Program-made: the position numbers and the translations under genes
Shown here: piece by piece, positions 4,262 through 11,951 of the stretch
Layout of the letters: every line of letters begins with the position of its first letter
Numbering within the stretch: position 1 is the first letter of the stretch
Source: an uncultured Polaribacter sp.
Lineage (GTDB): Bacteria; Bacteroidota; Bacteroidia; Flavobacteriales; Flavobacteriaceae
Assembly (NCBI RefSeq): GCF_947500975.1
Contig: NZ_CANMUE010000001.1
Span: 62,001-126,000 of the forward strand
Direction of reading: 5' to 3'
DNA: 64,000 bases
Notes under the pieces: model-generated
Told to the model about the DNA's origin: nothing
Seen by the model: the letters and a program-made list of their open reading frames with translations, nothing else
Database searches by the model: none

Positions 4262-4876
4262 TTATATCAAAATAAAGACTGCAATCATCAGAAAAACAAT
4301 TATTTGCAACCATTTTAAATAAAAATCAATTTTTTTATTTTTTTTAATTCTTTTTGAAATTGTACCTGCTAAAACTGCTATAGAACTAAAAATAATAAAA
4401 GAAATAAGTATAAAAAGTGAGCCTAAAATATAAAACTGAATTACTGTAGAAAGCTCATCTGAAAATAAAAACTGAGGAAAAAATGCTAAAAAAAAGATAG
4501 TTACTTTTGGATTTAAAACATTCATAATAAATCCTTGTTTAAATAATTGTAATGTAGTTTTCTTATTTACTTTCTCGGTAGAAAAAACAATTACATCATC
4601 ACTTTTATATATTTTATAGGCTAAAAATAACAAGTAAATGGCTCCAAATAGTTTTATTATAAAAAATAAGGATTCACTTTCTTTAATAATTACTGAAACC
4701 CCAAAAGCTACTAAAGTAGTGTGGATAATGCAACCTGACATCAAACCCAAAACCGTTGCTAATCCAAACTTTCTGCCATTTACAATACTTTGTGTAAGTA
4801 CAAAAATGTTATCTGGTCCTGGAGAACAAGCCAAGATCGATGTTGCTATAATAAATGAGAGTAAGGTTTCTATCAT
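4262..4876 (-). CDS. LysE/RhtB family amino-acid exporter
   Basis: A 204-residue inner-membrane protein with about six hydrophobic segments. Near the N-terminus it carries the family signature CSPGPDNIFVLTQSIVNGRK, followed by GLMSGCIIHT. LysE/RhtB proteins export amino acids or small metabolites. The substrate cannot be told from sequence. It stands alone between the iron operon promoter and pyrD on the same strand, with 83 bases to pyrD upstream. Length is normal for the family. Confidence 0.9.
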   Translation of the reverse strand: MIETLLSFIIATSILACSPGPDNIFVLTQSIVNGRKFGLATVLGLMSGCIIHTTLVAFGVSVIIKESESLFFIIKLFGAIYLLFLAYKIYKSDDVIVFSTEKVNKKTTLQLFKQGFIMNVLNPKVTIFFLAFFPQFLFSDELSTVIQFYILGSLFILISFIIFSSIAVLAGTISKRIKKNKKIDFYLKWLQIIVFLMIAVFILI

Positions 4877-8549: not shown

Positions 8550-8680
8550 ATTTCTTTCTTCAAATTTCAGTGGCAAATTTAACCATTTTTAGCCTTTTTA
8601 TTAAACATATTTATCACTATTTATTAATTATTAATGTTATTTGAAAATTGTAAATTTGATCTTTATTGAATTTTAAAATT

Positions 8681-9915
8681 ATGCGTTACTATATTTTATT
8701 TTTTTATTTTTTTCTTTTTTTGCTTTTGCTTCTTGTAATCAAAAAAGTAATGAAACTTTAAAAATAGGGACTTACAGAGCTGTTTTACAAATTAAAGACA
8801 ATCAACAATTACCTTTTATTTTTGAAGTTAAAAACGATTCTTTATTAACTATTTTTAATGCTGATGAAATTATTATAGTTGATGAAATAACTTATAAAAA
8901 TGATTCCGTTAGAATACAGACTCCTGTTTTTGAAGGATATATAATTGCAAAAATAGAAAACGAAATTTTAAAAGGTAGTTTTATAAAACCTAGTTTAAAT
9001 AGAGTTGTACCCTTTGAAGCAACAAAAAATGATGTGGGTCGTTTTACTTCTAAAAAAGAGGCATTTGTAAATATTACAGGAAGTTGGCAAACTATTTTTA
9101 ATCAAAAAAAAGAAACTGAAAAGTATATTGCAAAAGGAATTTTTAAACAAACCAATAATAAAGTAACTGGAACATTTAGAACTACTACTGGAGATTATAG
9201 ATATTTAGAAGGAATTGTAGATGGAGATTCTTTAAAGCTATCAACTTTTGATGGTGCTCATGCTTTTTTATTTACCGCAAAAGTTAATGATTCTATTATG
9301 AATGGTTTTTTTTATTCTGGAAATCACTGGAAAGAACCATTTACTGCAACATTAAATAATAGTTATGAATTACCTAATGAAAATAATTTAACTTATATAA
9401 AAAAAGGTTATGAAAGTTTTGATTTCTCTTTTCCCGATACAAGAGGTAGAATTTTTTCTTTAAGTGATCCCGAATTTGAAAATAAAATAATCATACTTCA
9501 AATTATGGGAACCTGGTGTCCAAATTGTTTAGATGAAAGTAAATTTTTAGTAAATTATTTGAAGGATAATCCTAATAAGAATATTCAAATTATTTCTTTG
9601 GCTTTTGAAGTAGCAAAAACAAGAAAAATTGCTTACCAAAGAATTAATCGTTTAAAAGAAAGACTTAAAATTAACTACCCTGTTTTATTAGCACAATTTG
9701 GAAATTTAGCAGATAAAAAATTAGCTCAAAAAAAATTACCCATGTTAAATCATATACTTTCTTACCCAACAACAATTTTTATAGATAATAAAGGTAAAGT
9801 AAGAAAAATTCATACCGGTTTTAATGGCCCTGCTACTGGTAAAAAATATGAAGATTTTAAAATTGATTTTGAAAACTTTATAAATTTATTGATTTCTGAA
9901 AATGAAGAACTTTAA
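8681..9915 (+). CDS. TlpA-like thioredoxin-fold lipoprotein with a frameshift in the signal peptide
   Basis: The ORF track shows only 9034-9915 from a GTG, but the same frame is open back to a lipobox (AFASC, Cys codon 8734-8736) and has no start codon upstream of it. The ATG at 8681 opens the signal peptide (MRYYILFF...) in another frame, which ends at TAA 8759-8761. Adding one T in any of three T7 tracts (8699-8705, 8707-8713, 8715-8721) joins the two frames into a normal roughly 411-residue lipoprotein. The mature part has an N-terminal beta domain and then a TlpA/AhpC-type thioredoxin domain with the redox motif GTWCPNC. This could be a phase-variable gene, a real mutation or a sequencing error. 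The function is probably periplasmic thiol exchange. Confidence 0.7.
8699..8721 (+). repeat. Three consecutive T7 homopolymer tracts
   Basis: Three runs of exactly seven T are separated by single bases (A at 8706, C at 8714). They lie inside the hydrophobic core of the TlpA-like signal peptide, exactly where the reading frame breaks. Such tracts are hot spots for slipped-strand mispairing and also for sequencing error. Confidence 0.9.
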
Positions 9916-9922
9916 AATTAAA

Positions 9923-9930
9923 TATCTTTG
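9923..9930 (+). promoter_or_regulatory. TATCTTTG -7 box before LTA-synthase-family gene
   Basis: A perfect TANNTTTG match lies in the 32-base gap between the TlpA-like gene and the next ATG (9948). No clear -33 box at standard spacing was seen, so an independent promoter is only suggested. Confidence 0.4.
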
Positions 9931-9947: not shown

Positions 9948-11951
9948 ATGTTGACTAAAATACCAAATTACATTAAATATATTTTTAGCAATTTTTTATT
10001 GTTATTTTTATTTACAGCCATTTTTAGAATAATTTTTTTTCAGTTTTTTGTTCATTTAGAAAATGCTACATCATTAGAAATTAGAAAAGCTTTTTTATTA
10101 GGTTTACGTTTTGATATTAAATTAGCTGCTATTACTATTTTTCCTTTAGCTATTTTAGTTTTAATTGTAAATCGTAGTTTTTTTAAATACTTGTTTTACA
10201 AAAAATTTGCAAATATATACTTAGTTTTAGCTTATTTGACACTTACTATATTTTATTTAATAGATTTTGGATATTATGATTATTTATCAATTAGATTAGA
10301 TGCTGCCTCTCTTCGATTTTTAGAAGATTTAAAAATTTCATCACAAGTTTTATTAGAAAGTTATCCTTTTTTCAAAGGCTTTTTAGGGGGTTTATTACTT
10401 TGTTTTTTGATTTTTAAAATGTCTTCTTTTTTATATAAATCTTTTAAAAATCATACTTTATATTTTTCAATAAAATTAAAAGCTTTTTATTTTATTACAA
10501 CTTTTTTGCTTTTAGCATTTAGTATTTTTAATAGTTTTACACATTATCCTTTAATATGGAGTGAAGCTTTTTTTTCTAAAAACAATCAAGTAAATCAATT
10601 TGCTTTAAACCCTATTTTATATTTTTTTGACAGTTTTGAATTTAGAACAGAAGGTGTAAATATGGATGAGTTCAAAAAATATTACACAATAATTGCAAAT
10701 GAACTAAACTTACCCAAAGACTCTATTTCTTTTGAACGAAAAGTTGTTTTTAATGATACTTTAAAAAGTAAACCTAATGTTGTTTTTGTAATGTTAGAAT
10801 CTGTTGGCGTTAAACCTTTAAGTTATTATGGCAATCCAATTAATAGCTCTCCTAAAATTGATTCTTTAATTAAAAATAGTTTAAGTTTTAGTAATTTTTA
10901 TGTACACAAATCTGGAACTGCTGCTAGTGTTTTTGCTAGCGTAATTGGATTACCTGACATAGATGATGTAAATACAGCTTCTAGAAACCCTATGATTATA
11001 GATCAACGTATTTTATTTGATCAATTTAAGGGTTATGAAAAATTATATTTTTTAGGAGGAAGTGCAAATTGGGCAAATATTAGAGGTATTTTTCAAGCTA
11101 ATATTAAAGATTTAAAAATTTTTGAAGAAGGAAGTTATAATACTGAAAATAGAGCTGATGTTTGGGGTATTGATGATTACGAATTATTTAAAGAGTCTGA
11201 CAAAGAATTACAAAAGTTGCATCAACAAAACATTCCTTTTGTAGCTTATATTCAAACAGCTACTAATCATATGCCTTTTACTGTTCCTAAAAAAAAGGAA
11301 AGCTTTACTCCTCTTTCTGAAAATGATATTTCTAAATCTCTTTTAAATGAAGCCGGTTTTAAATCTGTTGCTCAATTAAATGCATTACGATATTTAGATT
11401 TTAATGTTGGGCGCTTTTTAGAAAGAGCAAAAAAATCTGGTTATTATGAAAATACTGTTTTTGTATTTTTTGGTGATCATAATACAGCAATGAACAGAAC
11501 TAAACTATTTACAAAAGAACATGATTTAAATATACAATTACAACATGTCCCATTATTAATTCATGCCCCAAAAATTACACAGTCAATGGTGGTTTCTAAA
11601 AACGGAAAATTAATTGATTTATTTCCTACTGTTATGAGTCTCTTAAAAATTAACCATACAAATTATACCCTAGGAAGTAATTTATTAGATACAATAAGTA
11701 ACAAAAAAACTTCTTCTTTTGTGTATTTAAAAATTAATGGAGAGCCTGCAGTTGGTTTATTACAAGATAGTTTGTATTATTCTAAAACAAACATTACCCA
11801 AACAAGATCTTTATATAATTTAAAAGATGATAAAATGGAAGATTTAAAAGATAAATACCCTCTAAAATCTGCAGAAATGGATAGTCTTTTATCAGCTTAT
11901 TATCACGCAACAAAGTATTTGTATTTCAATAATAAGAAGCTAAACAAATAG
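9948..11951 (+). CDS. LTA synthase family membrane phosphotransferase (sulfatase fold)
   Basis: A 667-residue protein with five or so N-terminal membrane helices (residues 10-195) and an extracytoplasmic alkaline-phosphatase/sulfatase-type domain. Visible catalytic elements are VVFVMLESVG (Glu284, metal ligand), KSGTAAS (Thr324, expected nucleophile) and FFGDHNT near residue 508. Gram-positive relatives polymerise lipoteichoic acid. This organism is Gram-negative, so the enzyme more likely moves a phospholipid head group onto an envelope glycan or lipid; the acceptor is unknown. It follows the TlpA-like gene by 32 bases and converges on a PAP2 phosphatase with a 12-base overlap. Confidence 0.88.
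   Translation: MLTKIPNYIKYIFSNFLLLFLFTAIFRIIFFQFFVHLENATSLEIRKAFLLGLRFDIKLAAITIFPLAILVLIVNRSFFKYLFYKKFANIYLVLAYLTLTIFYLIDFGYYDYLSIRLDAASLRFLEDLKISSQVLLESYPFFKGFLGGLLLCFLIFKMSSFLYKSFKNHTLYFSIKLKAFYFITTFLLLAFSIFNSFTHYPLIWSEAFFSKNNQVNQFALNPILYFFDSFEFRTEGVNMDEFKKYYTIIANELNLPKDSISFERKVVFNDTLKSKPNVVFVMLESVGVKPLSYYGNPINSSPKIDSLIKNSLSFSNFYVHKSGTAASVFASVIGLPDIDDVNTASRNPMIIDQRILFDQFKGYEKLYFLGGSANWANIRGIFQANIKDLKIFEEGSYNTENRADVWGIDDYELFKESDKELQKLHQQNIPFVAYIQTATNHMPFTVPKKKESFTPLSENDISKSLLNEAGFKSVAQLNALRYLDFNVGRFLERAKKSGYYENTVFVFFGDHNTAMNRTKLFTKEHDLNIQLQHVPLLIHAPKITQSMVVSKNGKLIDLFPTVMSLLKINHTNYTLGSNLLDTISNKKTSSFVYLKINGEPAVGLLQDSLYYSKTNITQTRSLYNLKDDKMEDLKDKYPLKSAEMDSLLSAYYHATKYLYFNNKKLNK

Follow-up and report, generated by a model that had tools for sequence, protein, structure and literature searches.

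Why does a gene for a TlpA-like lipoprotein lack, as assembled, both the in-frame start codon and the lipoprotein signal that are present in all 43 of its same-genus orthologs? The gene lies in a 64,000-nt stretch of DNA from an uncultured Polaribacter sp. (C1:62001-126000; hereafter the window), which belongs to a draft assembly of 2.92 Mb in 272 contigs. Our analysis draws on one genome of the species, in the form of assembled sequence rather than reads. The following features define the 5' end of the gene.

8651-8658, + strand: promoter-like -7 element TAAATTTG, 30 nt 5' of ATG 8681
8677-9915, + strand: lipobox/thioredoxin-like frame, open for 412 codons, without a usable start
8681-8761, + strand: ATG-started frame of 26 codons, off-frame to the lipobox and closed by TAA (8759-8761)
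8694-8721, + strand: 8-bp tandem repeat of 3.5 copies, spanning all three T7 tracts (Tandem Repeats Finder)

Reading-frame break in the signal peptide

The lipobox Cys codon occupies 8734-8736, and no ATG, GTG or TTG precedes it in its own frame (8677-8736). The sole candidate start, ATG 8681, is in a different frame from the lipobox. The original prediction, which had described a lipobox frame with no start and an ATG in another frame, is confirmed on both points, as is its account of three T7 runs parted by single bases (8699-8705, 8707-8713 and 8715-8721, with spacers A8706 and C8714). Its end coordinate, 9033, reflects the first listed start of the lipobox frame, GTG 9034. A start 5' of ATG 8681 was considered and rejected, as a stop closes the lipobox frame just before 8677.

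The consensus of the Bacteroidetes -7 promoter element is TAnnTTTG. The promoter-like TAAATTTG also stands 29-30 nt 5' of the ATG in six orthologs (L005, L037, L009, L041, L051 and L068), and this matching distance in the window and its relatives supports ATG 8681 as the probable ancestral start of the lipoprotein gene. Its position relative to the promoter and the Cys codon agrees with the start of the 43 orthologs. The -33 element is too variable among orthologs to judge.

The 8-bp repeat and the distance from start to cysteine

The T7 tracts are one period-8 tandem repeat rather than three independent tracts, a feature that had been overlooked in the original prediction. The first 20 bp of 8694-8721 form a perfect period-8 repeat, in which 8694-8705 is identical to 8702-8713 (a 12-bp self-match at an offset of 8); the copies are not all alike, the third carrying C in place of A. 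With a period of 8, each gain or loss of a single unit changes the frame. In the entire 2.92-Mb genome there is no other triple T7 array. Pairs of T7 with a one-base spacer are near chance frequency in the window (27% G+C), with three seen against 1.0 expected and 14 of 100 shuffles reaching three, and two-copy period-8 repeats are not rare there (Tandem Repeats Finder). Another T7-A-T7 pair, at 4330-4344, lies in frame within a LysE-like gene (4262-4876, - strand), a sign that coding sequence here tolerates pairs of this kind. Across 1.63 Mb of the genome, T runs of at least 7 were found within 19 of 102 lipoprotein-like signals, a T-richness attributable to Phe and Leu codons at 27% G+C.

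Of 168 same-genus genomes searched, 44 contain the gene, including the one from which the window comes; we read the N-termini of all 43 others for start, signal length and T tracts. Each starts at an ATG in frame with a lipoprotein signal that carries K or R at position 2 and runs for 16 residues (n=34) or 17 (n=9) up to the lipobox Cys. Counted from the A of the ATG to the Cys codon, the distance is 45 nt in 34 orthologs, 48 nt in the other 9 and 53 nt in the window, which exceeds the shorter class by 8 nt, exactly one repeat unit. Had a single T been lost instead, the intended signal would be 19 residues long, which none of the 43 orthologs shows. The original prediction is thus borne out in tying the out-of-frame signal peptide to a slippery repeat, where the frame indeed breaks, and is probably wrong in naming one extra T as the restoring event.

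Tracts of T7 to T9 are present in the signal peptides of 11 of the 43 orthologs, at differing positions and all in frame. No tract position is conserved among the 43, the tracts varying in place and length, and none of these genes represents an OFF allele. Some orthologs had been flagged with one TGA or TAA; L005 and L011, the ones we read through, have no frame break and are open from the ATG to the terminal stop. A search of genome contigs found no second strain of the species and returned three relatives only, two of which are orthologs L007 and L008; among viral contigs there were no relatives.

We consider it somewhat probable that the recent slipped-strand gain of one 8-bp unit broke the frame of an otherwise sound TlpA/ResA-like lipoprotein gene. 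Mispairing of slipped strands where the signal-peptide region is T-rich would have added one unit to the repeat and so shifted the ATG out of the frame of the remaining gene, such that the frameshifted allele would yield a 26-residue peptide in place of the lipoprotein in this isolate. Since the surplus equals one unit and a 19-residue signal is absent from the 43 orthologs, one 8-bp duplication appears to be the simplest single event; a two-step route to the same sequence would be a 9-nt in-frame growth plus the loss of one T. We infer the causal duplication, its recency and its presence in the DNA rather than in the assembly, all three. Chance contraction of the repeat could reverse the change, and the frameshift may therefore be reversible at a low rate, with no sign of having evolved as a switch.

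Selection on the gene and other accounts of the break

The body of the gene is under normal purifying selection. Compared with eight relatives at 75-78% identity (L005, L037, L006, L038, L039, L007, L040 and L008), its dN/dS is 0.148-0.192 over 386 codons, none of which is a stop; among those eight relatives, at similar distance, dN/dS is 0.12-0.21. This lack of decay implies that the break is young, artefactual or bypassed. An old pseudogene was rejected on the same grounds. The predicted product has a C-terminal thioredoxin-like domain (Pfam AhpC-TSA, 1.2e-11, plus Redoxin) with the redox CxxC motif WCPNC, and its nearest structures by sequence are of ResA. An extra N-terminal region of ~220 residues has no assigned role.

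Reading frames were surveyed over 1.63 Mb, drawn from six contigs, by means of a 3-periodic Markov model of coding sequence that takes account of frame and is blind to breaks very near gene ends. The 1,294 coding segments surveyed hold 2,140 A/T runs of at least 7, 60 of them of at least 9, and 13 segments lack a start at the expected place. Two of the 13 were traced to a frameshift at a repeat, namely the lipoprotein gene and one of the SMI1/KNR4 family that carries an A9 run, and at least three resemble non-AUG starts. Alignment to a complete relative (G009) revealed no frame change in 132 proteins, which comprise 44,673 aligned amino acids and 206 A/T runs of at least 7.

The SMI1/KNR4 (SUKH-1) gene, outside the window at C1:412480-413673 (L171), is off-frame with its upstream ATG at the A9 run; its congener ortholog L172 is open from the ATG and has no A9 run. 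A short conserved-looking protein gene at C3:209508 is interrupted by an in-frame TAA close to its start; this stop seems to stem from a substitution rather than from a repeat. Judged by homology, ribD seems to start with ATC here and in three congeners and with TTG in others; priA seems to start with ATT here and probably also in two congeners; and a rluE-like gene seems to start with ATT here and with ATA in two congeners (sites C2:145624, C1:148336 on the minus strand and C3:120718; loci L180-L183, L198-L199, L211 and L214).

Two further features, read from the sequence, bear on whether the break could be bypassed.

8707-8713, + strand: -1 slippery heptamer T_TTT_TTT, in the ATG frame
8716-8722, + strand: -1 slippery heptamer T_TTT_TTG, in the ATG frame

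If the true tract length differed from the assembled one, for instance by one more T, the gene would be intact, in keeping with the normal constraint on its body. Indel errors typically arise where three homopolymers adjoin one another, and an assembly of 272 contigs is a draft. However, an assembly prone to errors in homopolymers should show many more breaks than the two traced repeat frameshifts among 1,294 segments and the absence of any break at the 206 A/T runs in genes aligned to G009. A missing T would, moreover, leave the 19-residue signal that no ortholog has, although this length is common among the genome's other lipoprotein-like signals (19/102). Sequencing or assembly error, which the original prediction had listed as an alternative, is therefore disfavored, and we regard it as unlikely. 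Constraint on the gene body would also be in keeping with recoding, in which RNA polymerase slipping on the U7 tracts, or ribosomes shifting by -1 at U_UUU_UUU or U_UUU_UUG, would allow enough lipoprotein to be made from the off-frame gene. The two heptamers are positioned in the zero frame, as such a shift requires, a -1 shift enters the lipobox frame, and transcription insertions in bacteria increase with the length of A/T runs (PMC5574713). Against this, even the three best heptamers give only ~0.3% frameshifting without stimulators in E. coli (PMC4066793), and we found no stimulatory RNA structure in 8714-8813, whose fold is no better than that of shuffles (z = +0.96); RNA structure as a driver of frameshifting was rejected accordingly. 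The arrangement is found in no ortholog, all 43 being single-frame, which argues against a conserved program, and we think recoding improbable. Initiation at ATT 8698, which is in the lipobox frame, would need no frame change, and ribD, priA and the rluE-like gene apparently use non-AUG starts in this genome. Such a start would, however, produce a leader of 13 residues without Lys or Arg, whereas K or R stands at position 2 in every ortholog, making this the most remote of the readings by far.

On/off phase variation was the central proposal of the original prediction: the tracts, or the 8-bp repeat, would form a contingency locus that had evolved to switch the lipoprotein. The repeat lies in the coding region directly 3' of the start codon and its unit, repeated 3.5 times with a period of 8, is not a multiple of three; the triple T7 is unique in the genome, and the gene body is still constrained. 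Low-copy repeats are able to switch, as exemplified by the TTTA repeat of S. aureus icaC (PMC4117637). On the other hand, a conserved repeat position with both ON and OFF states is not seen, in that all 43 orthologs are ON, including the 11 with T7-T9 tracts at unconserved positions. T7, the longest run here, is short for A/T slippage, a study of SSRs in Neisseria meningitidis having used A/T runs of at least 9 as the mark of over-represented tracts (PMC5084427). In addition, T runs of at least 7 occur in 19% of lipoprotein signals in this genome. Evolved phase variation is thus unsupported, and we judge it quite unlikely. A literature search on Polaribacter and phase variation yielded only passing mention of both terms. 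A narrower version, in which a species-specific contingency locus reversibly switches the thiol-disulfide lipoprotein and, by polarity, an adjacent LTA-synthase-like gene, seems to us about as improbable as recoding.

The downstream gene and likeness to known systems

The neighboring gene begins 32 nt downstream of the lipoprotein frame.

9923-9930, + strand: possible -7 element TATCTTTG of the LTA-synthase-like gene, proposed from the sequence and the -7 consensus
9948-11951, + strand: gene for an LTA-synthase-like (sulfatase-fold) membrane protein (Pfam Sulfatase, 4.4e-40)

Its match to the NCBIfam lipoteichoic acid synthase model is below cut-off. The two genes are adjacent in nine congeners, with an intergenic gap of 3-37 nt in seven of them; in the other two, which are among the nearest, it widens to 373 and 556 nt. 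Given these two wide gaps, obligate co-transcription is not assured; a polar effect of the break on the LTA-synthase-like gene is possible.

Under the favored account, a repeat-slippage gain of one unit, the mechanism is already known and the locus amounts to an ordinary frameshift whose molecular cause is clear. A real break would mean that this isolate is without a redox lipoprotein of the envelope that its lineage has otherwise retained under selection, and the locus would illustrate how repeat slippage can knock out signal peptides that are rich in T where genomes are very AT-rich. Were switching shown instead, the gene would encode a redox protein of the envelope subject to phase variation in a marine flavobacterium.

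The predicted protein resembles TlpA/ResA-like thiol-disulfide oxidoreductases in its C-terminal thioredoxin-like domain, its WCPNC motif and, in the orthologs, its lipoprotein signal. It differs in the ~220-residue N-terminal region and in scores far under the curated ResA and TlpA cut-offs. Frameshifts at homopolymers can be bridged by ribosomal frameshifting or by transcriptional slippage, the topic of a review (PMC5009743). Such cases likewise involve a T-run frameshift in an AT-rich genome and a gene body under selection; here, by comparison, the runs are only 7 long, the genus is free-living and there is no sign of rescue. With the SSR contingency loci of icaC (PMC4117637) and N. meningitidis (PMC5084427), the locus shares a short coding-region repeat that has a unit length indivisible by three and at which the frame breaks. 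It departs from them in showing no length variation within the one genome of the species and in having few and imperfect copies of a repeat that is not conserved in the 43 orthologs.
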